DNA from: Piscinibacter sp.
GTDB taxonomy: Bacteria > Pseudomonadota > Gammaproteobacteria > Burkholderiales > Burkholderiaceae_C
Assembly (NCBI GenBank): GCA_019635485.1
Contig: JAHBZL010000006.1
Span: 1 to 64,000, forward strand
Direction of reading: 5' to 3'
DNA length: 64,000 nt
Part shown: piece after piece, positions 24,325 through 59,255 of the stretch
How positions within the stretch are numbered: position 1 is the stretch's first letter
How the letters are laid out: every line of letters begins with the position of its first letter
Position numbers and translations under genes: made by a program
The notes under the pieces: generated by a model
The model's database searches: none
What the model was told of the DNA's origin: nothing
The model's input: the letters and a program-made list of their open reading frames with translations, nothing else

Positions 24325-24560
24325 GATCCCACTGACCGCTTCTTGGCGGCCGGGCTGCTCGGGCTGCAAAACAAGTCGTCGCGGCCCCAGAGGTCGCCTC
24401 GTGCCATCGAGCCGCAGGTGGCCTACTTCGAGCGCTTGGGCGTACCCACCCAGCGGGTGCTGACCGACAACGCCAAGTCCTTCCACTCAGCCCTGTTCGC
24501 AGCCAGGGCAAGGCAGAACGCTTCATCCAGTCGGCCCTGCTCGAGTGCCGTCTGTTCGCG
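24325..24560 (+). pseudogene. IS481-family transposase remnant, internally deleted
   Basis: Three conserved pieces of an IS481 transposase are packed into about 240 bp. They are an N-terminal piece (AAGLLGLQNKSSRPQRSPRA), a catalytic-core piece (VAYFERLGVPTQRVLTDNAK) and, in another frame, GKAERFIQSALLE from the region around the catalytic Glu. In a complete enzyme these lie over 100 residues apart, so at least two internal deletions and a frame change have occurred. The 300 bp upstream (24028-24324) hold only the rhs promoter region. The remnant overlaps the 3' end of the relaxase gene. Confidence 0.75.
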
Positions 24561-25539
24561 ATGCATCGCACACGGCGGCCGTTTGGGTGTGACCGCGACC
24601 CGGGCTCTCGCGGTTCGGTGCGCCCTGCATGGCCGGCTCTGTCGTGATCGCCATGTCCTGGATGAACTGCTTGATGGACTGCGCCAGTCGCAGGTTGCCC
24701 GGATCTCCGGTCTCGGCCAGCGCCTTGCCGATCTGCATCCAGGCGTGCAGGGCCTGAGCGCGGGTGGACTGTGCCTGCGCGCCCGACTTGGCGGTCGCAC
24801 TGACCGTGCGAAGGCGCCCTTCTTCCCGCGCCTTGATGCGCCACAGCGGGTCGTCGTTGCGGTTGCGGCCACGGGTGGCCTGTCGACTCGCCTCGGCCTC
24901 GACACCCCTGCTCCGCAGCTTCTCGGCGAAGGTCTCGCGCCAGCAGTGCAGATCGGCCTTGCGCGGGTTGAGGCGCCGGCCGTGCCTGGACTCGGCGCGC
25001 ACGCTGATGTGCACGTGCGGGTTGGCCTGGTGGTCGTGCAGCACCATCACGAACTTGTGATCGGCCAGCTCGGCCCGGGCGAACTCGCATGCCGCGCGCT
25101 GCACGGCCAGCGGGTCGGTCCCGCGGGGCATCGACAGCATGATGTTGAAGGCCTCGCGCCGATCGCTGACCTGGTCGATGAAGGTACCGCCGAAGCGCCA
25201 GTCATCGGCCAGCGCGCGCAGCGTGTCCTTGCCGCGCATCGTCTCGCCGCGTTCGTCCTCGATGTCGAGCCGGCCGTTCTTGCTGATGTAGCGGAAATGC
25301 GCGGTGATGGCCTTCATGCCGCGCCCTCCCCCGGTCACCTTGACCATCACCTGGGGCACACGGCGCATCACCGTGGCCTCGATGCGCTGGCGGATGGCGG
25401 CGGCACGGTGGCGGGCCGCCAGGGCGTTCAACCGGGGTTCGGGTCCGGCCCGGACCCTGCGGTTGGCGGGATAGAAGAGCCGGTCTCCCCATTGAATCAG
25501 GACGCCGTCTAGGCGGTTCAGGCGGTTCGCTTCGGACAT
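24523..25539 (-). CDS. Relaxase/mobilisation nuclease, VirD2-like, possibly 3'-truncated
   Basis: A 338-residue protein that should nick plasmid-type DNA at oriT and attach to the 5' end through Tyr. FRYISKNGR (Y84) is the likely nucleophile, and H168, H170, H175 and H177 in LHDHQANPHVHI form the metal-binding HUH-type motif. The start is ATG 25539 with GGAG seven bases upstream; an in-frame TTG at 25557 is less likely. It begins 15 bp after the MobC-like gene, an operon arrangement. The last 30 or so residues lie on the antisense of the IS481 remnant, so the native C-terminus was probably lost. The catalytic domain appears complete. Confidence 0.8.
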   Translation of the reverse strand: MSEANRLNRLDGVLIQWGDRLFYPANRRVRAGPEPRLNALAARHRAAAIRQRIEATVMRRVPQVMVKVTGGGRGMKAITAHFRYISKNGRLDIEDERGETMRGKDTLRALADDWRFGGTFIDQVSDRREAFNIMLSMPRGTDPLAVQRAACEFARAELADHKFVMVLHDHQANPHVHISVRAESRHGRRLNPRKADLHCWRETFAEKLRSRGVEAEASRQATRGRNRNDDPLWRIKAREEGRLRTVSATAKSGAQAQSTRAQALHAWMQIGKALAETGDPGNLRLAQSIKQFIQDMAITTEPAMQGAPNRESPGRGHTQTAAVCDASRTDGTRAGPTG

Positions 25540-25553
25540 GGTCTGCTCCTTCG

Positions 25554-26123
25554 TCAAGGGCCGTTCCGATTCGACGAGGCGCCAATGGCGCCGCGCGGTC
25601 GCAACTCAGCCAGGGCCCGCGAGGCAAGCCCGAGGTGACGCCGGAGATCGCCACCCAGTGCGTCGAGCATCTCGCGATACGGCCTCGCGGCGTGCACGTC
25701 GCCCCGCCGAAGCAGGACGGTGAGATCGCGAATGTTCCTGCTGAGAGTGGCAACCTCGGCGTTAGACGCGACGACAGCAGCGACATGCCCGGCGCGACTC
25801 GATCCGCTTGCCAGCACCGGCACGCCGGACACCAGGCCGGCGAGGAGCGCGCCACGCGACAGGCCGGCGGCGCGAGCCGCGGAAGCAAACCGTTCAGCCT
25901 CCTCGGCCGTGAGTCGAATCGACAGCTTGACGATCGCCTCGCAGTTGCTCGTCGTGGCCTGGGCCTCACCAGGCTCGCCGACCTCCGGCACGCCTAGGTC
26001 TCGTGCCACCGCGGACCGTACCAGCCTCGAGACGCTCACTCGCTCCGCTTCGGCACGCGCCACCAGTGCGGCCTTCAGGCCGCGCATGTCGACCGTGACG
26101 AAGTCATGGGCAGTGGTGTTCAT
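25554..26123 (-). CDS. MobC-like relaxosome accessory protein (ribbon-helix-helix)
   Basis: A 189-residue protein. The N-terminal segment (FVTVDMRGLKAALVARAEAE to VSVSRLVRSAVARDLG) and a second one (IVKLSIRLTAEEAERFASAA) both look like ribbon-helix-helix DNA-binding units. The C-terminal part (VATLSRNIRDLTVLLRRGD) resembles the MobC region that helps a relaxase open oriT. The ATG at 26123 is the first start before the domain; a longer open frame upstream runs through the control region and is not credible. It is transcribed with the relaxase and divergently from stbABC, the order seen around oriT in R388-type plasmids. Confidence 0.75.
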   Translation of the reverse strand: MNTTAHDFVTVDMRGLKAALVARAEAERVSVSRLVRSAVARDLGVPEVGEPGEAQATTSNCEAIVKLSIRLTAEEAERFASAARAAGLSRGALLAGLVSGVPVLASGSSRAGHVAAVVASNAEVATLSRNIRDLTVLLRRGDVHAARPYREMLDALGGDLRRHLGLASRALAELRPRGAIGASSNRNGP

Positions 26124-26458: not shown

Positions 26459-26890
26459 ATGAACCTGGTTCCGGTCCGTCCTCCCGGCCCCAACGCACGC
26501 AAGGCTCGAGCGTTCACCGCCGAGATCCTCCAGCTCCGCGCGCAGGGCTACACGTTCGAGGCCATCCGCGAGGCGCTGGCGGGTGCCGGTGTGCACGTGA
26601 GCAACAGCACCGTACAGCGGGAAGCAGCGAGGGCCGCCTCGGAGCATCCCGCGAGCGCTCGAGCCCAAGGATCGGACGAGGGCCCACGCGAGATCCAGGC
26701 GCCTTCGGCCCCAAGCGCTGCTGGGCAGGCCAGTTCGACTGTGTCACTCGCGGCACCTGCCCCTGCGGCAGTCCCGCAGGGCGACCGCGGTGCGCAGGTC
26801 GTCCACGACTTCGACTGCAAGCAGGACGCCGAAGCGTTCTTCGCCGCTCACGAGAGCAACCCCCTCTTCACCACCAAGGAGACCTCATGA
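26459..26890 (+). CDS. stbA: StbA-like plasmid stability DNA-binding protein
   Basis: A 143-residue protein with an N-terminal helix-turn-helix (about residues 10-55: ARAFTAEILQLRAQGYTFEA, then IREALAGAGVHVSNSTVQRE) and a low-complexity Ala/Pro-rich tail. StbA proteins bind repeats upstream of their own gene, repress the stb operon and ensure stable inheritance. The start is ATG 26459 after GAGGAG; an in-frame TTG at 26441 is weaker. The stop overlaps the stbB start as ATGA, so translation is coupled. Identification rests on the HTH, the operon order and the repeats just upstream. Confidence 0.7.
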   Translation: MNLVPVRPPGPNARKARAFTAEILQLRAQGYTFEAIREALAGAGVHVSNSTVQREAARAASEHPASARAQGSDEGPREIQAPSAPSAAGQASSTVSLAAPAPAAVPQGDRGAQVVHDFDCKQDAEAFFAAHESNPLFTTKETS

Positions 26891-27621
26891 AACTCGCCGT
26901 CATCAACTTCTCGGGCAACGTCGGCAAGTCCACGGTGGCTTGCCATCTGCTCTCGCCTCGCATCCCCGATTGCCAGGTCGTCGCGGTCGAGAGCATCAAC
27001 GCCGACAACGGCCAGCCGGTGCGGATCCGCGGCCGGCAGTTCGCCCAGTTGCAGGAGTTCCTGCAGGGCGTCGACAACGTCGTGGTCGACATCGGCGCGA
27101 GCAACGTCGAGGAACTGCTCAAGCTGATGCGGCGCTACCGCGACAGCCAGCGGGACTTCGATGGCTTCGTCGTGCCGACCGTGCCCGACCGCAAGCAGCA
27201 GCAGGACACGGCGGCGACGCTGGCAGAACTGGTGCGCATCGGTGTCCCGCACGAGCGGCTGCGCGTGGTCTTCAATCAGGTCGACGAGGAAGATCCGGTC
27301 GAGACCACCTTCGCGACGCTGTTGGCGTACTGTGCCTCGAAGGGCCTCGCCAAGCCGAACACGGCGGCGGTGATCCCGTTCAACGAGGTCTACTCGCTCG
27401 TGCGTGGAACAGGCCAGTCGCTGGCCGACCTGGCGGCGGATGGGACCGACTACAAGGCCCTGATCGCCAAGGCCGAGTCGCAGCCCGACAAGGTGGCCCT
27501 GGCGCGCCGCCTAGCCATACAGCGGCTGGCACGCGGCGTCATGCCGGAACTCGATGCGTGCTTCGCGGCGCTGGACCTTCAGAGCCTTTCGGCCGGTGCG
27601 CAGGCGGTGCCCACGGCATGA
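26887..27621 (+). CDS. stbB: StbB-like ParA-family ATPase
   Basis: A 244-residue P-loop ATPase starting MKLAVINFSGNVGKSTVACH, with Walker A at residues 9-16 (SGNVGKST, K14). It lacks the extra signature lysine of classical ParA (KGGxxKT), which is usual for the StbB group. VVVDIGASNVEEL (about residue 70) is the Walker A' acidic segment. In R388, StbB is needed for conjugation and counteracts StbA-dependent positioning. It is coupled to stbA and stbC by ATGA overlaps. Confidence 0.75.
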   Translation: MKLAVINFSGNVGKSTVACHLLSPRIPDCQVVAVESINADNGQPVRIRGRQFAQLQEFLQGVDNVVVDIGASNVEELLKLMRRYRDSQRDFDGFVVPTVPDRKQQQDTAATLAELVRIGVPHERLRVVFNQVDEEDPVETTFATLLAYCASKGLAKPNTAAVIPFNEVYSLVRGTGQSLADLAADGTDYKALIAKAESQPDKVALARRLAIQRLARGVMPELDACFAALDLQSLSAGAQAVPTA

Positions 27622-28142: not shown

Positions 28143-28433
28143 ATGCGCTCGACCCAGCAGTTCAGCATCACCCTGCCCCACGAGATGGCCGAGGCCGTGC
28201 GGGCGAAGGTCGCGGCCGGCGAGTACGCCACGGAAAGCGAAGTGATCCGCGACGGCCTGCGTGTCCTGCTGGCCCGGGACAGGGCCGTCGAGGACTGGCT
28301 GCGCAAGGACGTGGCCGCGGCCTACGACAAGCTGAAGGCGGACCCGTCGCGTGCAGTGGCGGTCGGCGCCGTCAAGGCGCGACTGGCCGCCGCGCACGCG
28401 AGGGTGACCCGGAAGGCGACTCCCAAGGGCTGA
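28143..28433 (+). CDS. parD: ParD-family antitoxin (ribbon-helix-helix)
   Basis: A 96-residue protein. FSITLPHEMAEAVRAKVAAG followed by EYATESEVIRDGLRVLL is a ParD/CopG ribbon-helix-helix DNA-binding domain. The C-terminal half wraps the toxin in known complexes and is typically disordered when free. GAGG precedes the ATG by six bases. It overlaps the toxin gene, so antitoxin is made first and coupling maintains the ratio. The palindrome upstream is the likely autoregulatory site. The pair would stabilise the island by post-segregational killing. Confidence 0.88.
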   Translation: MRSTQQFSITLPHEMAEAVRAKVAAGEYATESEVIRDGLRVLLARDRAVEDWLRKDVAAAYDKLKADPSRAVAVGAVKARLAAAHARVTRKATPKG

Positions 28434-28735
28434 TCCCCTACTTCGTCGGCTTCGCTCCTGAGGCGTCCGACCAGCTCGTGGAACTGTTCACCTACGTTGC
28501 CGAGCGCAGGTCCCCGGCCGTCGCGGAGCGCTACACAGGTGCGGTGATCGGCACCTGCCAGGGTCTGGCGTTGTTCCCGCTGCGCGATGACATCCGCCGC
28601 CCCGGCCTGCGCGTCACCCACCACAAGGGGAGCACCTTGATCGCCTATGCCGTTGACGAGTGCACTCGGACCGTGTTGGTCCTCGGCATCTTCTACGGTG
28701 ACCAGGACTACGAAGGGGCGCTGTCCGCCGACTGA
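28430..28735 (+). CDS. parE: ParE-family toxin, probable CTG start
   Basis: A 101-residue RelE/ParE-fold protein: IPYFVGFAPEASDQLVELFT at the N-terminus, RYTGAVIGTCQGLALFP, then RRPGLRVTHHKGSTLIAYAV and VLVLGIFYGDQDYEGAL at the end, the full ParE pattern. ParE toxins inhibit DNA gyrase. The family's N-terminus aligns exactly with CTG at 28430, which overlaps the parD stop as CTGA. Upstream in this frame there is no ATG, GTG or TTG that keeps a sensible start, so a CTG start by translational coupling is the simplest reading. The product is full length and probably active. Confidence 0.85.
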   Translation: MIPYFVGFAPEASDQLVELFTYVAERRSPAVAERYTGAVIGTCQGLALFPLRDDIRRPGLRVTHHKGSTLIAYAVDECTRTVLVLGIFYGDQDYEGALSAD

Positions 28736-28840: not shown

Positions 28841-29194
28841 TCAGCACTCGCTTGGCCAGCGCAGGCCCCAGCGCTCGATGACGGCGCGTACACGGGCATC
28901 ACCGTCGGGGACCAGCGTGTGCAGGTCGGCCCGGCCCCAGCGCAGCGCGTCCAGGCAGCACAGCATGTCGTCGCTGATGGCGATGTCGACAGCGCGCAAC
29001 TCGAACAGGTCGAACGGGAAGGCCCGGCCGTTGTAGCTGGCGGCCAGGAAGCGCGCGATGCGCGGGATCTGGCCGGAGTCTCGCTCCTCGGCCAGCTTGA
29101 GCAGCTGCGCGAACGCCTGCGCTCCTGCCTGGGTCGCCTGCCGCGACCTGGTGTCGAATTGCGCGAGTTCGGTTTCGATCGCGTCGGGACTCAT
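28841..29194 (-). CDS. Uncharacterised plasmid-type protein (DUF7673-like)
   Basis: A 117-residue soluble protein with the central motif LAASYNGRAFPFDLFELRAV and the ending DMLCCLDALRWGRADLHTLV. I associate this pattern with small proteins of plasmids and integrative elements next to DUF932 and SSB genes; the DUF name is from memory. The ATG at 29194 is in the expected place for the family. No catalytic motif is visible. It follows the DUF932 gene on the same strand after a 107-bp gap. Confidence 0.6.
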   Translation of the reverse strand: MSPDAIETELAQFDTRSRQATQAGAQAFAQLLKLAEERDSGQIPRIARFLAASYNGRAFPFDLFELRAVDIAISDDMLCCLDALRWGRADLHTLVPDGDARVRAVIERWGLRWPSEC

Positions 29195-29301: not shown

Positions 29302-30165
29302 TCAGCCCTTCAGCTTGCGCATCTCCTCGGCCAGCATCCACAGCGCACGGTTCAGGCTCACGCCCCGGTCGATGCTGCCGACCGGCCGGGTCTGCAACCG
29401 GCGCCCCTGCGCGCTGCGGCCGGGCTGGCCACCGCGGATCACGTTCTCCTGCACGCGCTGGAAGGTCGTCCAGAGGCTGTGCCCGATGTCCTCGGGCCGG
29501 CGCGCCTCGATCAGCTGCTCGGCAGTGACCGGCGCTGGCCGGTGCCCGCCCGTTTCCTCCACGCCGCGCTCGCCGAAGCGCAGTGCCAGGGCGGCCGTCG
29601 CAAAGGCGATCTCCTCGGGCGGCTGGAGCTGCAGCGCCTTCATCGCCTCCGTGTGCTCGTTCACCGCCTCGAACTCGTCGAGCACGCGGAACGCGCCTTC
29701 GATCACCTCGCCCTGGATGTTGCCCTTGTGCGGGATGCGGATGTCCTCCACCACCTCGCCCACCACCAGGCCATTGCAGCAGACGAAGCGGAACATGCCG
29801 GCCAGCATCTGATAGCTGCTGGCGCCGTCGTGGCTGTTGATCAGGATGATCTCGTTCGCCTCGGGTCGCGTCTGCACCTGCCCGGCGTGGCGCATGCGGA
29901 TCATGTGCTTGGTGAACTCCGCCTTGCCTTCGACGCGGCTGGCGCCCTGGGCGACCATGAAGGGCTCGAAACCCTCCTTGCGCAGGCCGCGCAGGACATC
30001 GATGGTGGGGATGTAGGTGTAGCGTTCGGAGCGGCTCGCGTGCTTGCCCTCGGCGAAGATGGACGGCGCCGCGGCGCGCATCTGGTCTTCGCTCAGAGGC
30101 TGGTCGCCACGCATCACGCGGGTGTTGCGGGCAAAGCGGGTCGCCAGGGTCGGGGTCGAGTACAT
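29302..30165 (-). CDS. DUF932 domain protein
   Basis: A 287-residue protein with typical DUF932 landmarks: RYTYIPTIDVLRGLRKEGFE, HMIRMRHAGQ, EIILINSHDGASSYQMLAGM and FRFVCCNGLVVG. DUF932 (phage/plasmid-like protein) is common on mobile elements and has no proven function. Its place beside SSB suggests a role in element DNA metabolism or protection from host defences, which is inference. AAGGA lies eight bases before ATG 30165. It forms a probable operon with ssb upstream and the 117-residue gene downstream. Confidence 0.82.
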   Translation of the reverse strand: MYSTPTLATRFARNTRVMRGDQPLSEDQMRAAAPSIFAEGKHASRSERYTYIPTIDVLRGLRKEGFEPFMVAQGASRVEGKAEFTKHMIRMRHAGQVQTRPEANEIILINSHDGASSYQMLAGMFRFVCCNGLVVGEVVEDIRIPHKGNIQGEVIEGAFRVLDEFEAVNEHTEAMKALQLQPPEEIAFATAALALRFGERGVEETGGHRPAPVTAEQLIEARRPEDIGHSLWTTFQRVQENVIRGGQPGRSAQGRRLQTRPVGSIDRGVSLNRALWMLAEEMRKLKG

Positions 30166-30713: not shown

Positions 30714-31496
30714 GACGGACTCCAATCGAGAGCAACCAGCCGGGCCCCGGTCCGGGTTCCCTGAAAACTGATCCTCTCGCTCGGACTCCCTTGCTCCCGC
30801 CCACGGGCGGGCGGGGGGTGGGCAAGGCCCCTTCCCTCACGGGAAGGGGTGGGGGATGGGTGGTGTTCTTCAGCAGCCGAAGCAGTGAGCCGGTTTCCCG
30901 GCCCACCGCTTGAAGATCCCCCCACAAGTCCCCCTCGCAATTCGACGGGGGCGCCGTGGGGGGAGCGCGGTGGGACGACTGGCGCACGGGCTGCCCTTTC
31001 CCCACGGGAGCGCAGCGTCGCGGCCGATGTGCCAGCTCGCCTGGCGCAGCGGTTGCAGCGCAGCCGGCCGAACGATCACGAGCAGCGGCGGCTCAGCGGC
31101 CGACGTGCCACCGAGCGCAGCGACTGGCGCGGCGGTCGAGCCGCTGCGAGCACTTCACTGAACCCGGTCTTAGCGACCCGGCTCCGGGCTTGGCGGGTAG
31201 CCGGGGTGACGGTCTGGCACGAGCGCAGCTCACGGAGCGCAGCGCAGTGCGCGAGCAGCGGGCCAGTCCATCAAGCGGGACCGTCGGTCGCGTACTCGCG
31301 ACGGACATCAGGGCTCGCGCTCCACGGCCACGGGAAGGGTCGCCTTCACATGCCGTCGGCGCAGCCGGCCTGGACGTGTTGCGCGAAGGATGGAAGCCCG
31401 TCAGGGTCGAGACCGCGACGAAGGAACGGGCTCGACGCGAAGCACGACAGCCTGACCCCGCGCAGCGGGGACGCGCTCAGCATTGACAATGACACC
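30714..31496. other. Noncoding 783-bp region between ssb and the SPARTA operon
   Basis: This stretch has no credible gene but many structured sequences: an inverted repeat CCCGCCC/GGGCGGG near 30798, a perfect 9-bp hairpin CCCCTTCCC-TCAC-GGGAAGGGG at 30828-30849, two related copies of GGCCGAYGTGCCA near 31021 and 31098, several GAGCGCAGCG words, and the candidate RNA element at 31385-31470. It must also hold the ssb and SPARTA promoters; TTGACA at 31484-31489 is too close to the ATG to serve as its -35. Confidence 0.5.
31385..31470 (+). ncRNA. Candidate structured RNA element upstream of SPARTA
   Basis: Starting from GAAGGATGGAAGCCC (31385-31399), GTCAGG (31400-31405) pairs with CCTGAC (31451-31456). 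GTCGAG (31406-31411) directly next to it pairs with CTCGAC (31431-31436), leaving a 14-base bulge on the 3' side. A tight hairpin CCCCGC-GCA-GCGGGG (31456-31470) follows at once. The nested helices sharing one continuous 5' strand are unlikely by chance. I recall similar GGATGGAAGCCC...GACAGCC elements in noncoding parts of other integrative elements, but cannot verify this. It ends 26 bp before the TIR-APAZ start, so it could be a leader, a small RNA or a DNA-level site. Confidence 0.5.
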
Positions 31497-32888
31497 ATGT
31501 CGACGAAAGCACTCTTCATCAGCCACGCCGCACCCGAGGACAACGCCTTCACTCGATGGCTGGGTGCAAGGCTCGAACTGGCTGGCTACCGTGTCTGGCA
31601 CGACCTCGACCAGCTAAAGGGCGGCGACCCTTTCTGGGACAAGATCGAAGCAGCGATCCGCGGCGAGGCCATCCGCATGATTGCAGTCGTCTCCAAAGTC
31701 TCCATCCACAAGTCCGGCGTCAAGAACGAGTGGGCTGTAGGTGCGACGCTGGAACGCGCACAACCGGGTTTCATCATTCCCGTGTGTATCGACGAGGGCT
31801 TCGACTTCTCTACCTTGCCGATCGAGATCCACCGCAAGAACGTGCTGGGGTTCGGAGCGGGTTGGCACAAGGGCTTGAAGGCGCTTCTCGACACCCTTGC
31901 CGAAGCGGGTATCCCGCGCATTGCGGCGCCCGATCCATCCGTGGCGCTGCACTGGCTTCCGGAAACCAAGGCGGGAGCCATCCTGCGAACCGACAAGGAA
32001 GAGATCCTCGACTCCAACTGGCTGCGCATCTCCTCGCTACCGCCCACCCTGGACAGCGCCAGGATTCTGGGCACGGAGCGGAAGATCAAGGTCAATGACG
32101 AGAACCGGGCCACTCCGTGGTTCGAACACGAGAATCTGATCGTCGGCTTCGCGAAGGCCGCCGACCTTGTGAGCATGATGCGGAACACGGTGATGCTCAA
32201 GGCCGCAAATGCCGTCGATACCGAGGCATTCCTGGAATCGGGCTCGACGCTGGGAACTCAGACGGTTCGGCCGTCAGAAGCGCGCAAGCGAGTCGCAAAC
32301 CTCGTCAGGCAGGCCTGGGAGTTGACGATGGAGGCCAAGGGTCTCGGCAGCTACGAACAGTCGGGCGGGAGGCGCGTGTTCTTCGTCACTCCCGAGTTGA
32401 CCAAGGGTCGTGGCGAACGGGTGGCGTTCATCGACGTGGACGGCAAGCAGCGCCGAAAGGCGCTCAACGGCCGCAGCGAGAAGCGCAAGGCGAACTGGTG
32501 CTACGCCGTGGGCATGGTGCCCGCATTCGACAAACCCTGGCGCATCGAACTCCGATCCACGATCGTCTTTACCGACGACGATGGCAAGCCGCTGGACTCG
32601 GTTGCGAGGGCGCATCGGCTCCGCATGAGCTTCTGCCGGAGCTGGTGGAACGACCGCTGGCGCGGCTTCCTGCGCGCCTTCCTGGCATTGGTCGCGGAGG
32701 GCCAGCCCGAGTTCCGGCTTCCCGTCGGCTCCGGCCGGTTCGTGGTCGTAGCGGCCGAACCGATCCAGTTCACGGCGCCGGTCGGCCTGTCGGACCTGGC
32801 TCCGTCGATAGACCTGGACCCCGTCGACGAGCATGAGGAAGACGAGGCAGATTTCGACGACCTCGATGAAGAGGAGGCGCCGCAATGA
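31497..32888 (+). CDS. TIR-APAZ protein of a SPARTA defence system
   Basis: A 463-residue protein. The N-terminal TIR domain (about residues 1-140) starts KALFISHAAPEDNAFTRWLG and continues GYRVWHDLDQLKGGDPFWDK. Glu 78 in VKNEWAVGATLER sits where the catalytic NADase glutamate of SPARTA TIR domains is found. The remainder (about 190-463) is an APAZ-type region that replaces the Argonaute N-PAZ half and ends in a very acidic tail. In characterised SPARTA pairs this subunit binds the short Argonaute; target recognition triggers oligomerisation and NAD(P)+ hydrolysis, killing or arresting the infected cell. The stop overlaps the Argonaute start as ATGA. ATG 31497 lies directly before the TIR fold, but no good ribosome site is visible, so expression may be low or controlled by the leader. 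Confidence 0.85.
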   Translation: MSTKALFISHAAPEDNAFTRWLGARLELAGYRVWHDLDQLKGGDPFWDKIEAAIRGEAIRMIAVVSKVSIHKSGVKNEWAVGATLERAQPGFIIPVCIDEGFDFSTLPIEIHRKNVLGFGAGWHKGLKALLDTLAEAGIPRIAAPDPSVALHWLPETKAGAILRTDKEEILDSNWLRISSLPPTLDSARILGTERKIKVNDENRATPWFEHENLIVGFAKAADLVSMMRNTVMLKAANAVDTEAFLESGSTLGTQTVRPSEARKRVANLVRQAWELTMEAKGLGSYEQSGGRRVFFVTPELTKGRGERVAFIDVDGKQRRKALNGRSEKRKANWCYAVGMVPAFDKPWRIELRSTIVFTDDDGKPLDSVARAHRLRMSFCRSWWNDRWRGFLRAFLALVAEGQPEFRLPVGSGRFVVVAAEPIQFTAPVGLSDLAPSIDLDPVDEHEEDEADFDDLDEEEAPQ

Positions 32889-34417
32889 GCGCTCGACCCC
32901 AGTTGATCGAGGTGCCCGAGCCCAACCTGCTGTTCGGCCATGGCCAACGCATGGAGCATCCAAAGGATGGCCTCCTGCTCTACGGTCCCAACCAGAACCC
33001 CTGGTCGGGCGGCACCCTGCGCATCGGTGTCGTCGCCACTCGGCCCGGTCTGGAGCGTTACTCGAGATGCGTCGCGAGGCTCGCGCTGCCGATCCCGCCG
33101 AAGAAGGCTGGCGACCCGAATCACACGCACTTTCCCGGCTTCGAGGCGGTCTTCGGTGTCGAATGGCCATCCACACCCGCCACCTGGATCGAGGTCGATG
33201 CGGACGAGCTGGCCCGAGTGATCCGCATCGAAGACCGCCACCAGGCGATCCATCATGCGGTCACCCTGTACTCCGAGGCGATCGTCGAGCACCTGCGCCA
33301 GGGCAGCGAAGCGGGCATCGATCTCTGGATGGCCGTCGTGCCCGAGGACGTGTACCGCTACTGCCGGCCGCAATCGAAGGTGGAGAAGGACGAGCGCCAG
33401 CGTCCGGACACGCTGATGAACAAGGAGGCGGCGACTCGGCTTTTGCAGGCTCCCGGTCTCTTCGAGGAAGACAACGTGGCAGCCGAGGTCTATCTCTACG
33501 AACTGGACTTTCACAACCAGCTCAAGGCGCGGCTGCTGGAGCACAAGGTGGCCGTCCAGGTTCTCCGCGAAACCACCCTGGCACCGGAGGACTTCATCAA
33601 GGCGAACGGCATGCCGCTGCGCGGCCTTCAGGACCCTGCGACGCTGGCCTGGAACCTCGCGACGACCTGCTTCTTCAAGGCCGGAGGGCGCCCGTGGCAG
33701 CTGGGCAAGGCACGCCCCGGTGTCTGCTACGTCGGGATCGTGTTCAAGAAGGACTTCTCGTCTCCCGAACCGGGCAACGCCTGTTGTGGAGCCCAGATGT
33801 TCCTGGAGTCCGGCGACGGAATCGTGTTCCGCGGCGCGGTCGGTCCGTGGATGACGGAGGCCGACGACGACTTCCACCTGCCCCGCGACAAGGCTCGTGC
33901 TCTGATGCAGCTCGTCGTGGATGCCTACAGGAAGAGCCACGGCGGCGAAGCGCCCAAGGAGCTGTTCATCCACGGCAAGACCAGATTCGATGCCGAGGAA
34001 TGGGAGGGCTTCCGCGAAACCGTGCCTGCCGAAACGAATGTCGTCTGCGTGCGCATCAGGCCCGACTCCAGCCTGAAGCTGTTCCGGCACGGCACGACAA
34101 GCATCGGTCGCGGCATAGCCTGGGTGCGGTCCTCGTGGCGCGCATACTTGTGGACGAAAGGATTTGTCCCCCGTTTGCAGACCTATGCAGGCCGCGAGGT
34201 ACCGAATCCGCTTTCAATCGAGATCAGCCGGGGCGAAGCCGACATTGAGCAGGTCATGGCCGACGTGCTGGCCTTGACCAAGCTCAACTACAACACCTGC
34301 ATATACGGTGACGGCGTGCCGGTGACGCTTCGATTCGCCGATGCGGTCGGCGAGATCCTGACCGCCGCGCCGCGCAGGAACGAGCTGCCACCGCTGCCGT
34401 TTCGCTACTACATCTGA
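32885..34417 (+). CDS. Short prokaryotic Argonaute (MID-PIWI), SPARTA partner
   Basis: A 510-residue protein of the length usual for short pAgos (MID plus PIWI, no N or PAZ domain). The MID-like part contains the nucleotide-pocket region (about 150-280) and the PIWI-like part begins near VCYVGIVFKKDFSS. There the first catalytic Asp expected after YxGI is replaced (GIVF), and the later segment LFIHGKTRFDAEEWEGF has no catalytic Asp after the His, so target cleavage is not expected. The protein ends LPFRYYI, like other short pAgos. It would bind a guide RNA and detect complementary single-stranded DNA for the TIR-APAZ partner. It is translationally coupled to it and has no third gene behind. 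Confidence 0.85.
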   Translation: MSARPQLIEVPEPNLLFGHGQRMEHPKDGLLLYGPNQNPWSGGTLRIGVVATRPGLERYSRCVARLALPIPPKKAGDPNHTHFPGFEAVFGVEWPSTPATWIEVDADELARVIRIEDRHQAIHHAVTLYSEAIVEHLRQGSEAGIDLWMAVVPEDVYRYCRPQSKVEKDERQRPDTLMNKEAATRLLQAPGLFEEDNVAAEVYLYELDFHNQLKARLLEHKVAVQVLRETTLAPEDFIKANGMPLRGLQDPATLAWNLATTCFFKAGGRPWQLGKARPGVCYVGIVFKKDFSSPEPGNACCGAQMFLESGDGIVFRGAVGPWMTEADDDFHLPRDKARALMQLVVDAYRKSHGGEAPKELFIHGKTRFDAEEWEGFRETVPAETNVVCVRIRPDSSLKLFRHGTTSIGRGIAWVRSSWRAYLWTKGFVPRLQTYAGREVPNPLSIEISRGEADIEQVMADVLALTKLNYNTCIYGDGVPVTLRFADAVGEILTAAPRRNELPPLPFRYYI

Positions 34418-34683: not shown

Positions 34684-35193
34684 CTAGAGCAGCCCGCGCT
34701 CGGCGAAGGACACCACGTCGCCACCGCCCACCACGAGGTGGTCCAGCACGCGCACGTCGACCAGCGCCAGCGCGGTCTTCAGGGTCTGCGTCAGGTACTC
34801 GTCGGCCCGGCTCGGCTCCGGCGCGCCCGACGGATGGTTGTGCGCCAGGATCACCGCCGCCGCGTTCTGCGCCAGCGCCTCCTTGACCACCTCGCGCGGG
34901 TACACCGAGGTCTGCGTCACCGTGCCGCGGAACATCTGCTTGAGCACGATGATCCGGTGCTGCGCATCGAGGAACAGCACGCAGAACACCTCGTGCTCCA
35001 GCGCCCCGATCTCCAGCCGCAGATGATCCTTCACGGCCTGGGGTGACGACATGGTGGCACCGCGACGCACGCGCCGAGACAACACGCGCCGCGCCTGCGA
35101 CAGCACCTCCTCGGCATGTGCAGGACGGTACTGGCCATCGACATCGCGCACCAGCAGGGCATCGGCGTCAACGGCGGAAGAGTTGGAAGACAT
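34684..35193 (-). CDS. RadC-like JAB domain protein of mobile elements
   Basis: A 169-residue protein equal to the C-terminal JAMM domain of RadC (DUF2466): [33 protein letters not shown], then H118-N-H120-PSG and D131 in SRADEYL, the metal-binding set. Short RadC homologues like this are frequent on integrative elements and plasmids. Despite the name, a role in DNA repair is doubtful. GGAG precedes ATG 35193 by seven bases. It is convergent with the SPARTA operon. Confidence 0.82.
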
Positions 35194-35443
35194 GGCGGGA
35201 CTCCGGTCGGTGTCGGGCGGGATTGCCCGAGACCGGAGCACCACGGCGCAGCGCAGCCGTCAGGGTTCGAAGACGGCCGCAGGCCGCAAGCGCCCGCCAC
35301 CGCGGGCGCGCAGACCTTGACGGCGAGAACGGCGTGGTAGCGTGGGTCGACACGGCAAGCCCACCCACGCTCCCCCCATCAACGGTCTCGTCCCACCTGG
35401 CCCTTCCACGGCCCGCGGGCCGGCCCGTCAGGGCAGTGGATGC

Positions 35444-36918: not shown

Positions 36919-37515
36919 GTGTCCAACCTCGCCCACCAAGTCCTCGCGCACGCCGCCTCGCTGCCGGAAGGCGCCAGCCTGTCCGCCAAGGCGCTGCTGC
37001 ACCTGGGCAGCCGGGCGGCCGTGGACCAGGTCCTGTCGCGCCTCACCCGCAGCGGTGAGCTGCTGCGCGCCGGCCGGGGGGTCTACGTCCTGCCCGTCAA
37101 GGGCAAGTTCGGGGCACGCGCGCCCGAAGTGGCCAAGGTGGTTCAGGAATGGGCCAGCCAGCGAGGCGAGATCGTCGTCGGCAACGGCGCGGCGGCCGCC
37201 AACGCGCTGGGACTGACCACCCAGGTGCCGGTGCGGCAGGTGTTCCTGACCTCGGGGTGCAGCCGCAAGCTCAGGCTCGGCTCGCAGACGGTCGAACTGC
37301 AGCATGCCCCGCCCTGGCAGCTGCTCTACCCCGGGCAGGCCGCGGGCGAAGCGATCCGGTCGCTGGCCTGGGTAGGCCCCTCTGGGTCGGCAGAGGCACT
37401 GGGCAAGCTGAGGCGCAGGCTGCCGGCGTCGGAGCTTCAGGCCGTCGCCAACGCACGCGCGCGCCTGCCCACCTGGCTGGCGAGCCAGGTCAGCGCGCTG
37501 GTGACCCGTGCCTGA
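36919..37515 (+). CDS. AbiEi-type antitoxin (DUF6088-like)
   Basis: A 198-residue protein. The N-terminal winged helix (about residues 15-65: SLSAKALLHLGSRAAVDQVL, then SRLTRSGELLRAGRGVYVLP) is the AbiEi DNA-binding part, and the rest matches the DUF6088 pattern (VVGNGAAAANALGLTTQVPV; RQVFLTSGCSRKLRLGSQTV). In type IV AbiE systems this protein represses transcription and counteracts the nucleotidyltransferase toxin without tight binding to it. The start is GTG 36919 with AAGGA seven bases upstream; longer upstream frames lack coding character. It overlaps the toxin gene by 8 bp. Confidence 0.82.
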   Translation: MSNLAHQVLAHAASLPEGASLSAKALLHLGSRAAVDQVLSRLTRSGELLRAGRGVYVLPVKGKFGARAPEVAKVVQEWASQRGEIVVGNGAAAANALGLTTQVPVRQVFLTSGCSRKLRLGSQTVELQHAPPWQLLYPGQAAGEAIRSLAWVGPSGSAEALGKLRRRLPASELQAVANARARLPTWLASQVSALVTRA

Positions 37516-38530
37516 CTTCTTCGGCCTGTCGCCCGACGACCAGCGCGAAGCGCTGCTCGTCGCGGCCGAGCGATCAGGCCGTCCGTTGCACCTCCTCGAG
37601 AAGGACGTCTGGGTCGTGTGGGCACTGGAGCACCTCTTCGCAGGCCCGCACGCGAAGCATCTGGTCTTCAAGGGCGGGACCCCCCTGTCCAAGGCCTACG
37701 GCGTCATCCGCCGCTTCTCCGAGGACGTGGACCTCACCTACGACATCCGAGCCATCGCGCCCGACCTGGTCGGGAAGTCCGAGTCGCCCTGGCCCACGAC
37801 CCGCAGCCAGGAGAAGAAGTGGAGCAAGGCGATCCGGCAGCGCCTGGCGGAACTCGTCGCAGGCGAACTGCTCCCCGAGGTCGCCAAGGCGCTCCAGGCG
37901 CAGGGCCTGCCGGCAACCGTCCATGCAGAAGGCGAACAGATCCTCATCGACTACGACGCACTGGGCCAGGGCACCGGCTACGTCCGCCCCTCCGTCCTTC
38001 TCGAGTTCGGCGCACGATCCACGGGCGAGCCCAACGAGCCGAAGCCGGTCGTGTGCGATGCTGCGGCGCACCTGCAGGATCTGAGCTTGCCAACGGCGAC
38101 ACCGCAGGTCATGCGCGCCGAGCGCACGTTCTGGGAGAAGGCCACGGCCATCCACGTCTTCTGCGCGCAGGGCACCTTCCGCGGCGGCGCCCGCTTCGCG
38201 CGCCACTGGCACGACGTGACCCGGCTGCATGCTGCAGGCTTCGTCGACAGCGCAGCCGCGGACCGAGAACTGGCACAGGCCGTCGCTGCCCACAAGAGCG
38301 TCTTCTTCGCCGAATCGGCACCCGATGGCACGACGATCGACTACGGGGCTGCTGTCAAGGGCGCACTGGTTCTCGTACCGAAAGGCGACGCACGCACGGC
38401 GCTGGCCGATGACTACCAACGCATGGTCGAGGATGGCCTGCTGATGGACGATGCCGAGGCCTTCGACAGCATGCTCGAACGCTGCCAGGCACTCGCAGAC
38501 AAAGTGAATGCAATGGTCTGCGGGCCATAG
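37508..38530 (+). CDS. AbiEii-type nucleotidyltransferase toxin
   Basis: A 340-residue protein with the AbiEii/DUF1814 nucleotidyltransferase core: FKGGTPLSKAYGVIRRFSED, that is K55-G56-G57-T58 and S71-E72-D73-V74-D75, which bind nucleotide and metal. RTFWEKATAIHVF is the conserved helix downstream. Related toxins add nucleotides to tRNA or otherwise use NTPs to stop growth, aborting phage infection. The start is GTG 37508 inside the end of the antitoxin gene. All motifs are intact, so the pair is probably functional. Confidence 0.85.
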   Translation: MPDFFGLSPDDQREALLVAAERSGRPLHLLEKDVWVVWALEHLFAGPHAKHLVFKGGTPLSKAYGVIRRFSEDVDLTYDIRAIAPDLVGKSESPWPTTRSQEKKWSKAIRQRLAELVAGELLPEVAKALQAQGLPATVHAEGEQILIDYDALGQGTGYVRPSVLLEFGARSTGEPNEPKPVVCDAAAHLQDLSLPTATPQVMRAERTFWEKATAIHVFCAQGTFRGGARFARHWHDVTRLHAAGFVDSAAADRELAQAVAAHKSVFFAESAPDGTTIDYGAAVKGALVLVPKGDARTALADDYQRMVEDGLLMDDAEAFDSMLERCQALADKVNAMVCGP

Positions 38531-46203: not shown

Positions 46204-46253
46204 TGGTAGGCGCGATTGGACTCGAACCAACGACCCCCAGCATGTCAAGGTGG
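46204..46253 (-). pseudogene. 3' part of a tRNA-Val(GAC) gene, probable attachment-site remnant
   Basis: Fifty bases match the 3' portion of the intact tRNA-Val at 59179-59255 (anticodon arm, variable loop, T arm, acceptor end and CCA) with one difference, a C/G change in the anticodon stem. The 5' half is absent: beyond 46253 the sequence changes completely. With an integrase gene beginning to read 45 bp away, this is most simply the chromosomal end of an att site in a second tRNA-Val gene. Confidence 0.8.
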
Positions 46254-46297: not shown

Positions 46298-47698
46298 TCA
46301 TAGATCGTCAGCGAGTTCCAGGTCCATCACCTCGGAGGCATCGCGTCTGGCCTTCGCGATCGCATCCCGCGCTGACTTGCCTTGTTCCCACAGGGTCAGC
46401 ATGTCCGCCCAGGCCTGCATCATGATGCGGCGCTCTGCTGCATAGCGCGCCACGTTGTACGTTGCGGCGATGCGGTTCCGAGGGGCATGCGCCAGAGCCA
46501 TTTCGATCCAGCGCTCATCGAACTTGGCCCTGTTCAGGGAGGTGCTGAACGTCCGCCTGAGGTCGTGCACGGTGAACGGCAGAAATTCCGGCACCGTCGT
46601 CTGAATGCGGCTGATCGCCATGGCGATGACCCTGTTCAGGGTCGCATCGCTGATCGGAAGATCGCTGTCGTACCGCCCGGGGTGCAGATATCGGCTCGCT
46701 GAGAAGCAAGATCGCAGCGTCGTGAGGACGTCCAGCGCCTGGTCGCTCAGGTAGACGATGTGCGGCTTGCCGCCCTTCATCCTGCGCGACGGGATGGTCC
46801 AGGTCTCGCCGTCGAAGTCGATCTCGTCCCAGGTGGCGTCGATGAACTCGCCCTTGCGAACGCCCGTCAGGAGCACGAAGCGAACGGCCAGCCGCAGCGT
46901 AGGCATCGTGGCAGCCTGATCCAGCGCCGCGAGGAACAGGCGCAGCTCGCTGGGGGAAAGCGCCCGATCGCGCGGCTCGAAGCGGGCGATGGCGCTGGCC
47001 TGCACGCGCTCGGCCGGATTCGACACCTCGATCCCCTTGCGCTGGACATGCCGGTAGACCATCAGGACGATCTCCCGCGCGTGCACCGCCACCGCAGGAC
47101 CCCGCTGTGCCTTGATGTCATCGCAGAGGGCGGCGAGCCGGTTCGGCGTGATCTCCTCGAGCATCAACTTGCCGAGTGGCTTCTCCAGCGCGCGCTTGTA
47201 GGTCGATCGACGCATGGCGAGCGTGCTGTCGGCGAGTTGCTCGCCCTTGCTCTTCGGGTCGCCCTTGAACTCGAAGTAGCGCTCGACCCACTTGCCGAAC
47301 GTCAGGGCGTCGGTTTCCGCCGCCTTCTTCTCCGCCTTCGCACGCGACGGCGACACGCCCTCGTCGAGCGAACGCTTCGCCTTGATCAGCAGAAGTCGGG
47401 CTTCGGCCAGGGAGAGGCCCATGCCGTAGTCGAGCACGTCCAGGGGCCGGGGTGCGCGCGCCGGGGCGGTCGGATCGTAGCGGCCCAGAGTCAAGGTCTC
47501 GCGCCGCTTGCCGATGCGGTAGTCGAACCGCAGGCTGATGGTCCCCGACGCGGACACGTAGGCATACAGCCCGTCCCGGTCGCTGACCTTGTAGGCCTTG
47601 TCTCGCGGCTTCAGGGCCTTGAGCTGGAGATCCGTGAGGGAGCGGACCCGCGAAGGGACCGCGCTGGCGGACTCGTCCAGGTGGCGTACGACTGACAT
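46298..47698 (-). CDS. Tyrosine recombinase/integrase (P4-type, DUF4102 N-terminus)
   Basis: A 466-residue integrase. The N-terminal arm-binding domain (about residues 20-75) contains AYKVSDRDGLYAYVSASGTI, SLRFDYRIGKRRETLTLGRY and the SLAEAR helix. The catalytic domain has R281 (LLTGVRKGEF), K308, H378-x-x-R381 (HDLRRTF), H404 and nucleophile Y414 (AATYNVARY), so all active-site residues are present. It reads toward the tRNA-Val fragment at 46204. Enzymes of this group integrate islands into tRNA 3' ends. No excisionase or other element gene accompanies it on the right, where guaA follows directly. Confidence 0.9.
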   Translation of the reverse strand: MSVVRHLDESASAVPSRVRSLTDLQLKALKPRDKAYKVSDRDGLYAYVSASGTISLRFDYRIGKRRETLTLGRYDPTAPARAPRPLDVLDYGMGLSLAEARLLLIKAKRSLDEGVSPSRAKAEKKAAETDALTFGKWVERYFEFKGDPKSKGEQLADSTLAMRRSTYKRALEKPLGKLMLEEITPNRLAALCDDIKAQRGPAVAVHAREIVLMVYRHVQRKGIEVSNPAERVQASAIARFEPRDRALSPSELRLFLAALDQAATMPTLRLAVRFVLLTGVRKGEFIDATWDEIDFDGETWTIPSRRMKGGKPHIVYLSDQALDVLTTLRSCFSASRYLHPGRYDSDLPISDATLNRVIAMAISRIQTTVPEFLPFTVHDLRRTFSTSLNRAKFDERWIEMALAHAPRNRIAATYNVARYAAERRIMMQAWADMLTLWEQGKSARDAIAKARRDASEVMDLELADDL

Positions 47699-47913: not shown

Positions 47914-49497
47914 TCATTCCCACTCGATCGTGGCCGGAGGCTTGCTCGAGACGTCGTAGGTGACGCGGTTGATGCCGCGCACCTCGTTGATGATGCGGCT
48001 GGAAACCTTCTTCAGCAGCGCGTACGGCAGCTCGGCCCAGTCCGCGGTCATGAAGTCGCTGGTCTGCACCGCACGCAGTGCGACCACGTGGTCGTAGGTG
48101 CGGCCGTCGCCCATCACCCCGACGCTCTTGACGGGCAGGAACACCGCGAACGCCTGGCTGGTGAGGTCGTACCAGTTCCGCCCCGTGGCCGGGTCGACGG
48201 CCGAGCGCAGTTCCTCGATGAAGATCGCGTCGGCGCGGCGCAGCAGGTCGGCGTACTCGCGCTTCACCTCGCCGAGGATGCGCACGCCCAGCCCCGGCCC
48301 GGGGAAGGGATGGCGGTAGACCATCTCGGGCGGCAGGCCGAGCGCAACACCCAGTTCGCGCACCTCGTCCTTGAACAGGTCGCGCAGCGGTTCGAGCAGC
48401 TTCAGGCCGAGCGTCTCGGGCAGCCCGCCGACGTTGTGGTGGCTCTTGATCGTGGTCGCCTTCTTGGTCTTGGCGCCGCCGGACTCGATGACGTCCGGGT
48501 AGATCGTGCCCTGGGCGAGCCACTTGGCGCCCTTCAGCTTGCGCGCCTCGACCTGGAACACCTCGACGAACTCGCGGCCGATGATCTTGCGTTTGGTCTC
48601 GGGATCGGCGACGCCCTTCAGGTGGCCGAGGAACTGCGGGCTCGCGTCGACGTGCACGACCTTCGCGTGCAGCCGGCCCTCGAACATCTCCATCACGGCC
48701 TTGCCTTCGTCCAGCCGCAGCAGGCCGTGGTCGACGAAGACGCAGGTGAGCTGGTCGCCGATCGCGCGGTGGATCAGTGCGGCGGCCACGCTCGAATCGA
48801 CGCCGCCGGAGAGGCCGAGGATCACCTCCTCGTCGCCGACCTGGGCGCGGATCTTCGCCACCGCCTCCTCGATGTGGTCGCGCATGATCCAGTCGGGCCG
48901 GGCCTGCGCGATCTGCAGCACGAAGCGCTCGAGCAGCGCGCGGCCTTGCACCGTGTGCGTGACCTCGGGGTGGAACTGCACGCCGTAGTAGCCGCGCGCC
49001 TCATCGGCCATGCCGGCGATCGGGCAGCTCGGCGTGGAGGCCATCAGCTTGAAGCCCGGCGGCAGCTCGGTGACCTTGTCGCCATGGCTCATCCAGACCT
49101 TCAGCATGCCGTGGCCTTCGGGCGTGCGGAAGTCCTCGATGCCGTCCAGCAGCTTCGTGTGGCCGTGCGCTCGCACCTCGGCGTAGCCGAACTCGCGGTG
49201 CGTGCTGGCCTCCACCTGCCCGCCCTGCTGCACCGTCATCGTGAACATGCCGTAGCAGATGCCCAGCACCGGCACGCCCAGGTCCCAGACGGCCTGCGGC
49301 GCGCGCAGGTCGTGTTCCTCGTAGGTGCTGGCGTGGCTGCCGGACAGGATGACGCCCTTGGGTGCGAACTCGCGGACGAACGCGTCGCTCACGTCGTTCG
49401 GGTGGATCTCGCAGTAGACATGCGCTTCGCGGATGCGGCGGGCGATCAGCTGCGTGACCTGGGAGCCGAAATCGAGGATCAGGATCTTGTCGTGCAT
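47914..49497 (-). CDS. guaA: GMP synthase (glutamine-hydrolysing)
   Basis: A 527-residue enzyme converting XMP, ATP and glutamine to GMP. The class I amidotransferase domain has [15 protein letters not shown] with the nucleophilic Cys, and the His-x-Glu of VQFHPEVTH. The ATP-pyrophosphatase domain has the P-loop [10 protein letters not shown]. The C-terminal dimerisation domain ends ISRxxx-like in PATIEWE. The length is normal for the family. It is the last gene of a guaB-MFS-guaA operon with gaps of 5-8 bp. The start is ATG 49497. Confidence 0.97.
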
Positions 49498-57527: not shown

Positions 57528-59126
57528 ATGATCGAACTGCAGAGTCTCGCAACGTTGGCAGGCGGCCTGGGCCTGTTCCTGCTCGGCATGGGACTGATGA
57601 CCGACGGCCTCAAACTGGCCGCCGGGCCGGCGCTGCACCGCATCCTGACCGGCGCCACGCGCACCCGCACGCATGCGCTGGGTTCCGGGCTCGTGGTCAC
57701 GGCGCTGGTCCAGTCGTCCAGCGCCGTGACGGTCGCGGCCATCGGCTTCGTCAACGCCGGCGTGCTCGCGCTCGGTCCGGCGCTGTGGGTCCTGTTCGGC
57801 GCCAACGTCGGCACGACGATGACCGGATGGATCGTCGCGCTCGTCGGCCTGAAGTTCAAGGTCGAGGCCCTCGCGATGCCGCTGGTCGGGCTCGGCGTGC
57901 TGCTGCGATTGACCGGCGAAGGCCGGCGCAGTGGCGCCGTCGGCACTGCGCTGGCCGGCTTCGGGCTGATGTTCTTGGGCATCGCGCTGCTGCAGCAGGC
58001 CTTCGTCGGGTTGGCCGGTCAGATCAGCCTGCCGCAGGGTGACGGACCCGTCGCCGTGCTCGCGCAGCTCGGCATCGGCTTGCTGATGACGGTGCTCATG
58101 CAATCCTCCAGCGCGGCCATGACCGTGACCCTCACCGCCGCGCACGGCGGCCTGATCGGCCTGCAGGGCGCGGCGGCCGTGGTCATCGGCGCGAACATCG
58201 GTACCACGGTGACGGCGCTGCTGGCCGCCATCGGCGCGACACCGAACGCGCGCCGGGCCGCAACGGCGCATGTGGCGTTCAACCTGCTCACGGGGACGGT
58301 GGCGTTGCTGCTCCTGCCCTGGTTGATCGACGCGCTGGGCCTGGCACGCCGCGCGCTGGGGCTGCCACCGGATCCGGCCGCCCTGCTGGCGCTGTTCCAC
58401 ACGACGTTCAATGTCCTCGGCGTGCTGCTGATGTGGCCGCTCGCGGCGCGCCTCACACGCTGGTTGCAGCGGCGGTTCCGGGCCCGCGAAGAAGACGAGG
58501 CCCAGCCGCGATTCCTGGACGACAACGTGCTCGCCGTGCCCACGCTGGCGCTGGACGCCCTGGCGCGCGAGGTGGCCCGTGCGGGTCAGGTGGCCCTGCG
58601 CATGACACAGGCGGCCCTGGCCGGCGCGGACACGAGTGCCCTGCGGTCGGACGATGCGATCCTCTCGAGCCTGGACGCTGCGATCGAGCGCTTTGTCGAG
58701 CGCCTGCGCAGCGCATCATTGCCCCAGGGGGCCAGCGCGCGCCTGGCCGAGCTGCTGCGCGTGCAGCGTTACCACGAGACCAGTGCCGAGCAGGCCATGA
58801 CGGCGGCGGCACTCGGTCCGTCCGGACAGGCCGACGCGCATGTCGTCACCGCCGATGCGGCGTTCCTGACCGCCGCCACGACGCTGCTGGCAGGTTGCGA
58901 TCCGACCGGGGTAGTGGACACGGCGCGCCTGGACGCCGACCTTGACACCATGGAGGCGCGCTATGCGGACCTCAAGGCCGCCCTGCTGACCGCCGGCGCC
59001 GACGCGAGACTCGCGCTGCCCGACATGGAGCGCGCCTTGAGCCGGGCGAGCGCGTTGCGGCGTTCGCTGCAGCAACTGCACAAGGCGCGCCGGCGGCTTG
59101 CACCGGAACCGGAAGCGGCGGCATGA
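57528..59126 (+). CDS. Na/Pi cotransporter family protein
   Basis: A 532-residue protein. The membrane part has the two inverted QSSS repeats of the NptA/PNaS family ([20 protein letters not shown] and [20 protein letters not shown]) and [11 protein letters not shown] / [14 protein letters not shown]. The last 190 residues form a cytoplasmic PhoU-like helical domain. Likely imports phosphate with sodium or controls phosphate efflux. ATG 57528; divergent from phaR; ends at a hairpin shared with the tRNA gene. Confidence 0.9.
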
Positions 59127-59178: not shown

Positions 59179-59255
59179 TGGTAGGCGCGATTGGACTCGA
59201 ACCAACGACCCCCACCATGTCAAGGTGGTGCTCTAACCAGCTGAGCTACGCGCCT
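59179..59255 (-). tRNA. tRNA-Val(GAC), complete
   Basis: The minus strand folds as a tRNA of 77 nt including an encoded CCA. The acceptor stem pairs AGGCGCG with CGCGCCT, the D arm contains GCTCAGCTGGTTAGAGC, the anticodon arm is CCACC-TTGACAT-GGTGG with anticodon GAC, and the T arm contains GGTTCGAGTCC. Its 3' 50 bases are repeated at 46204-46253. It lies just after relA on the same strand. Confidence 0.95.

Follow-up and report, generated by a model that had tools for sequence, protein, structure and literature searches.

The stretch of DNA treated here, hereafter the window, comprises 64,000 nucleotides of a Piscinibacter sp. genome (positions 1 to 64,000 of contig JAHBZL010000006.1, assembly GCA_019635485.1) and holds two overlapping genes that appear to encode a SPARTA immune system, consisting of a TIR-APAZ protein and a short prokaryotic Argonaute (pAgo), borne on an integrated, conjugative-type element. 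The two genes are as follows:

31497..32888, + strand: TIR-APAZ gene (ATG at 31497, stop codon at 32886-32888, 463 residues), with the TIR domain at about residues 1-135, APAZ at about 160-430 and an acidic tail at 428-463, modelled at low confidence
32885..34417, + strand: short prokaryotic Argonaute (MID-PIWI) with the PIWI tetrad lost (ATG at 32885, stop codon at 34415-34417, 510 residues)

As a first-pass annotation made from the sequence alone had proposed, the bases ATGA at 32885-32888 belong both to the end of the TIR-APAZ gene and to the start of the pAgo gene. The overlap is likewise 4 bases long in 14 of the 16 relatives in which both genes are readable and 1 base long in the other two, a count that stems from 17 loci, one of them (L046) without a readable TIR-APAZ gene, and from start codons picked by script. 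The profile search suggested by the same annotation returned matches for both proteins: Pfam TIR_2 matches residues 7-100 of TIR-APAZ (E 9.3e-19), the PADLOC TIR-APAZ (class I) model covers residues 4-458 (E 6e-139) and the PADLOC pAgo_I (class I) model covers pAgo residues 6-510 (E 1e-206), while the Pfam scan found no family for pAgo at E 0.01 and NCBIfam holds no fitting model for either protein. Among proteins of solved structure, pAgo matches 8j8h/8ifk over residues 5-510 (E 1e-142) and TIR-APAZ matches 8fex over residues 5-431 (E 4e-51). SPARTA chains make up the best 5 of the 17 PDB sequences listed for pAgo (E 2e-139 or better), and SPARTA TIR-APAZ proteins the best 8 of the 13 listed for TIR-APAZ (E 4.4e-46 or better). 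When the structure model of TIR-APAZ (mean pLDDT 76, pTM 0.58) was compared by Foldseek, the top 35 of the 50 listed matches were SPARTA TIR-APAZ chains (best E 8e-34), and SPARHA, SPARSA and SPARDA chains came next. Over its full length the model superposes loosely (TM about 0.47, rmsd about 20), since its domains are placed with little certainty; against the partial chains 8jr8_B and 8oze_E the TM normalised to the target reaches 0.8. An APAZ domain equivalent to N-L1-L2 is thus supported by the profile, PDB and Foldseek matches alike. Judged by sequence comparison, the matches of the gene pair to SPARTA are far beyond chance. A phage collection searched with pAgo gave no match.

The residues at functional sites agree with this assignment to a large extent. 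Positions given in portions of the published accounts of CrtSPARTA (PMC11156904) and MapSPARTA (PMC10474274) were mapped through HMMER alignments, and 17 of 23 pAgo positions are identical, the six changes being R72H, D306E, K325D, Y328F, R362K and N484D. The MID pocket for the 5'-phosphate of the guide is preserved in full (Y157, H210, K214, N470 and I510 all identical), so that the assignment of the first-pass annotation, which had set it against a possible lack of APAZ and PIWI matches or loss of the guide-binding residues, is borne out by profiles, solved relatives and pocket alike. The PIWI tetrad is lost, with V286, F330, K365 and D486 at CrtSPARTA V284, Y328, R362 and N484; V286 occupies the first tetrad position, where the annotation had noted a missing Asp. 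It had also correctly singled out the TIR glutamate, as E78 aligns with the published catalytic E77, which is among the 7 of 12 published TIR positions that are identical. The pair therefore shares with SPARTA of Crenotalea thermophila and Maribacter polysiphoniae (8ifk, 8u7b, 8fex) the two-gene architecture, the TIR-APAZ fold, the catalytic Glu, the 5'-phosphate pocket and the dead PIWI, but it has diverged to 46% identity to 8ifk_B in pAgo and 33% to 8fex_A in TIR-APAZ (over the aligned residues mapped), its TIR differs at T11, D44 and Y105, and it lies on a relaxase-bearing element.

The carrier element and its ends

The surroundings of the pair contain the following features:

24523..25557, - strand: MobP1/VirD2-type relaxase (PF03432 above cut-off; NCBIfam MobP1 E 9e-30, below its cut-off)
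25554..26123, - strand: NikA-like accessory mobilisation protein (Pfam below cut-off; recurs in the element family)
26887..27621, + strand: ParA-like ATPase (Pfam CbiA just below cut-off; recurs in the element family)
28143..28433, + strand: ParD-like antitoxin (Pfam)
28478..28735, + strand: ParE-like toxin (Pfam; start uncertain)
28841..29194, - strand: DUF7673 protein
29302..30165, - strand: DUF932 protein (Pfam PF06067 above cut-off), the best conserved backbone gene, at up to 99% identity
30243..30713, - strand: ssb (Pfam SSB PF00436 above cut-off; NCBIfam ssb just below cut-off)
30714..31480, no strand assigned: non-coding spacer upstream of ssb, conserved across the element family
31357..31480, + strand: hairpin-rich repeated module of about 120 bases, on the cargo side of the spacer
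34684..35244, - strand: RadC-like JAB protein (Pfam PF04002 above cut-off; the start may be 35193)
36919..37515, + strand: AbiEi-like antitoxin, in a second cargo block beyond RadC (PADLOC)
37508..38530, + strand: AbiEii-like toxin, in the same block (Pfam, PADLOC)
46298..47698, - strand: tyrosine integrase adjoining the 3' end of guaA, where the island probably ends on the right; it may belong to the same element
47914..49497, - strand: guaA, first core gene to the right of the island

The block formed by relaxase, NikA-like protein, ParA-like protein, ParDE, DUF7673, DUF932, ssb, a gap and RadC recurs in genomes of the same bacterial family, some members being absent, and 60 of the 399 genomes searched in that family, with that of the window among them, have a relaxase match (E 1e-40). 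Together with the Pfam matches and the relaxases of the plasmid database PLSDB, this recurrence confirms the placement of the pair by the first-pass annotation between ssb and radC of a relaxase-bearing, plasmid-type element. Its wording "plasmid-derived" is better replaced by integrated element of conjugative type. Among the nearest PLSDB relaxases, which show 36-40% identity in the 30 matches listed, is TraS of the PromA-type plasmids (AJ304453, the record of pSB102); those plasmids differ from the window family, which lies in chromosome-sized or core-bearing contigs of several genomes examined and has its own ssb-DUF932-RadC block. On the relaxase side, which in related elements is the place of a second cargo block, the window element is bordered by an open frame of 5586 codons (7267-24027) that looks Rhs/YD-repeat-like by eye.

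The right-hand boundary of the island is probably guaA. Six same-genus genomes preserve the gene order from guaA (47914) rightwards, although one of them, G399, was seen only in part and one gene (57528-59126) forms an exception, having no match in the six. Left of guaA only the integrase matches beside guaA, in 4 of the 6 at 45-59% identity, and G399 holds an element with the same backbone about 15 kb from this integrase; it is these three observations on which the proposed boundary is based. The left end lies outside the contig, whose first base is base 1 of the window. A search of the contig for a second guaA end that could complete an attachment (att) pair gave only 14-base, chance-like matches. 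Beside the integrase, at 46204-46253, 50 bases copy the 3' end of tRNA-Val with 98% identity. An island at tRNA-Val was considered and rejected: the intact tRNA (59179-59255) is situated 13 kb from the copy across core genes, so that the two do not form a simple att pair.

Queries for VirB4 and VirD4 taken from a related element and named by NCBIfam, VirD4 below its cut-offs, found no match in the own genome, whose assembly is 84% complete. The same VirB4 query matches 7 of 9 other genomes at 86-99% identity, plus one extra match at 25%. In relatives VirB4 is found about 17-40 kb beyond the relaxase and the contig here extends only 24.5 kb beyond it; the transfer genes could thus lie past the contig end and, given also the incomplete assembly, their loss is unproven. 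The first-pass annotation had further suggested that the pair may police copy number, which would be that of the carrier element or a plasmid version of it. Apart from that suggestion itself, only the ParA-like gene would fit such a role, while the element is found in a contig beside core genes and no replication initiator was recognised in the subset of window proteins scanned; copy-number policing can hardly be the function of the pair and found no support.

The cargo site, its spacer and the relatives of the pair

The place taken by the pair can be compared across the element family. Forty element stretches were picked from the relaxase and DUF932 tables and one was added from G399; 15 of the 41 contain both ssb and RadC, and several others are short or lack ssb. 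The gap between the two genes measures 506-701 bases in 6 of the 15 relatives and 2430-12397 bases in the other 9, compared with 3962 in the window, and the loaded gaps contain heavy-metal, MerR, ParD, NYN, CIA30, AbiE, Hsp70-like and major facilitator superfamily (MFS) genes. In the same-genus genome at locus L059 the site is occupied by an Hsp70-like gene (9882-12371) with unnamed partners in its neighbourhood, possibly an undescribed defence set.

At another place of this backbone, SPARTA occurs in Ramlibacter monticola (L043) and in an Ideonella metagenome-assembled genome (L045), where the pair is located beyond the relaxase and in the opposite orientation relative to the backbone. Since both fall in a subclade (L042-L045, support 1.0) to which the SPARTA of the window does not belong, the simplest reading is that SPARTA entered the element family at least twice by separate acquisition, exchange and rearrangement being the alternatives. 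The tree is weaker among the remaining taxa and has a long outgroup branch.

A pAgo match at E 1e-20 or better occurs in 19 of 399 genomes of the same bacterial family, the own genome included, and 11 of the 19 have a TIR-APAZ match beside it. A scan of named genomes gave 17 loci, 14 of them at 70-79% identity, from Rhodoferax, Hydrogenophaga, Polaromonas, Methyloversatilis, Zoogloea, Ramlibacter, Ideonella and other genera. Compared with three of these loci (L034, L036, L043) the ratio of nonsynonymous to synonymous changes (pN/pS) is 0.30-0.38 for TIR-APAZ and 0.23-0.35 for pAgo, with synonymous sites near saturation. At the Accumulibacter locus L040 (876-1178) the pAgo frame stops at an in-frame TAG after 100 codons while similarity spans all 510 residues, which is either a broken gene or an assembly error. 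Among ten neighbouring proteins of the relatives that were picked by eye and scanned, integrases were recognised beside L034, together with HmaA, and at L035; L037 has Lamassu LmuB, L043 an HKD-Snf2 helicase, and L042 both a type IIG restriction enzyme and a weak restriction match. One neighbour each at L036 and L042 gave no match. A gene for a WYL-type regulator directly precedes TIR-APAZ in L034 (7723-8616, WYL domain confirmed by Pfam), L036, L039, L042, L043 and L047, as found by tblastn. The same search, which did not include L038 and L040, had no WYL match at the window, L035, L037, L041, L044, L045, L046 and L048-L050, with less than 1 kb of upstream sequence available at L041 and L046. 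WYL regulators of defence islands are known from the parts of PMC9122601 consulted, in the main text of which a word search finds mention of neither Argonaute nor SPARTA.

The conserved part of the spacer stops about 16-20 bases before the start codon of TIR-APAZ and carries the hairpin-rich module on its cargo side. Copies of the module are found in 23 loci (L043, L051-L065, L067-L069, L076, L080, L089 and L119), and 27 copies align. A set of four hand-drawn hairpins keeps 94% of paired cells with 24 double changes, a score that none of 500 shuffles reached, although the set was drawn after viewing the alignment and related sequences can beat shuffles. It also scored above the structure found by RNAalifold, which has a small covariation term (-0.27) and double changes in 6 of 24 pairs. 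Rfam returned nothing up to E 0.1 on 24-48 kb of the window, the module included. Partial matches to the module, none covering 80% or more of the query, are present on 122 plasmid records, 103 of them predicted conjugative, 80 of them Burkholderia. Extra copies occur among the cargo in L053 and L068, and the module is found beyond RadC in L057, L058, L061, L063 and L080. Its candidate roles are those of a structured leader, a single-strand promoter and a cargo border. This arrangement raises the question whether SPARTA is a leading-region gene, expressed from single-stranded DNA on entry into a new cell, since it sits beside ssb and adjoins the hairpin-rich spacer, and leading regions hold ssb and anti-defence genes according to the parts of PMC11541004 consulted. 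However, the SSB and anti-defence families analysed in those parts are all on the T-strand (PMC11541004), and SPARTA does not share the strand of ssb and DUF932 but is encoded on the other one; for that reason this explanation is regarded as highly unlikely.

Proposed role and published context

Taken together, these observations suggest, with a probability of roughly 0.88, that the two genes constitute a SPARTA immune system and travel as cargo of an integrated, conjugative-type element. By analogy with the SPARTA family, TIR-APAZ and pAgo would form a heterodimer in which pAgo loads short 5'-phosphorylated RNA guides from invader transcripts; pairing of the guide with single-stranded target DNA would lead to the assembly of four heterodimers, whose TIR domains would then hydrolyse NAD(P)+ so that the invaded cell dies or ceases growth. 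Going by its context, the pair would have been inserted at the ssb-radC cargo site and, since that site holds other accessory genes in related elements, it may protect its carrier and the host cell from phages or other plasmids.

Several observations weigh against this proposal. SPARTA occupies the ssb-RadC gap in 0 of the 15 relatives and occurs anywhere in 0 of the 41 element stretches (the element of L076, from Ideonella, has SPARTA outside the stretch that was fetched), which makes it a rare occupant of the site. The structure model of pAgo is poor (mean pLDDT 50) and was left unused, so that the assignment of this protein rests on its sequence alone. The pAgo contacts R72, K325 and R362 are replaced by H, D and K, the pN/pS values against the distant locus L048 are 0.73 and 0.50 at saturated sites, and 5 of the 12 TIR positions, situated in the NAD pocket and on the assembly surface, differ (T11A, D44P, Y105F, D111E, V113H). 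In the Maribacter enzyme T11A, Y105A, D44A, D111A and I110G/V113G impaired NAD+ cleavage, according to the portion of PMC10474274 consulted.

Such changes raise the possibility that the pair looks intact and yet is a weak or silent passenger, in which altered NAD-pocket and assembly-surface residues (T11A, D44P, Y105F, V113H) and the lack of the WYL regulator gene seen next to TIR-APAZ in six relatives leave little activity. Against this stand the intact frames of both genes, pN/pS values below 0.4 against the nearer relatives compared, and the variation of the same TIR positions in other relatives: among 14 of them site 11 is T in nine, A in two and N in three, D44 is kept in none, and site 105 is F in 12 and Y in two. 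Of the TIR changes, only T11A is the exact substitution known to be harmful in the Maribacter enzyme. A weak or silent passenger is therefore considered unlikely; full activity is likely, judging from the residues, and falls short of certain because changes at TIR sites 11, 44, 105, 111 and 113 harm the Maribacter enzyme.

Alternatively, in line with the exclusion of competitors that the first-pass annotation had considered, the pair could act mainly as an exclusion device: transcripts of the resident element would supply guides against the entering strand of another element of its kind, and a cell invaded by both would be stopped. This would fit with the occurrence of SPARTA on more than one element of the family and of pAgo relatives on conjugative plasmids, and with the recognition of single-stranded DNA by RNA guides described for SPARTA in the part of PMC11156904 consulted. 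Two to five family relaxases are found in some related genomes, which indicates that co-residence occurs; the same multiple copies, however, show that relatives coexist, and among the genomes with at least two relaxase matches only G098 (SPARTA of the same clade, 71%) and G388 (pAgo at 34% identity) have a pAgo match. With self-targeting of the carrier unexplained as well, exclusion of related elements appears quite improbable. In a more far-reaching version, a Burkholderiales family of conjugative-type elements would have acquired SPARTA two or more times, at two cargo sites, as an exclusion weapon guided by transcripts, with RNA guides from leading-region transcripts of the resident copy matching the incoming related single strand and doubly invaded cells being killed while the carrier is spared by a mechanism yet to be found; this is very unlikely to hold as a whole.

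The first-pass annotation had stressed that a system acting against plasmids is itself carried by plasmid-type DNA. That holds for the window, but it presents no new paradox, as 99 plasmid records contain a pAgo relative (82 at 80% coverage or more, 52 of the 99 predicted conjugative) and in Sphingobium sp. YC-XJ3 such a pair is situated inside a transfer module, with traG/trbB on one side and the relaxase gene rlxS on the other; the occurrence of SPARTA on transfer-type DNA is hence not new. Among the 40 plasmid pAgo matches listed, 33 have 41-55% identity and 7 have 30% or less, the latter perhaps representing other short-pAgo systems, and in 13 the match coincides with an annotated TIR gene, which in two more that were inspected lies just upstream. 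The pairs on large plasmids of Rhizobium, Bradyrhizobium and Sphingobium resemble that of the window in pAgo, at 41-55% identity, and in having a TIR gene under or beside the match (15 of the 40 listed); they differ in that pAgo identity reaches 55% at best and in their transfer systems. ApsAB of Escherichia coli islands is likewise an Argonaute-like anti-plasmid pair, situated on islands at a tRNA, some with AbiE; its proteins differ, being a helicase/nuclease and an Argonaute-like protein without typical PIWI and PAZ, as described in part of PMC11096173. Defence carried by mobile genetic elements against rival elements is a published general idea (PMC8791490, consulted in part), and Argonaute systems in island hotspots of Pseudomonas have been published already, as far as the portions consulted go. 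Judged by title or beginning of the abstract, none of the open-access papers listed by searches on SPARTA or Argonaute in mobile elements and on the backbone genes describes the present element.

The pair is thus a further example of SPARTA, an established type of system, and its mobile context is well resolved. With it, Burkholderiales gain a well-preserved SPARTA on a clear mobile carrier, and the loaded and empty cargo sites of the carrier family would allow a direct test of whether SPARTA shields a conjugative element from its rivals; the family is likewise suited to asking how the carrier avoids triggering the system.

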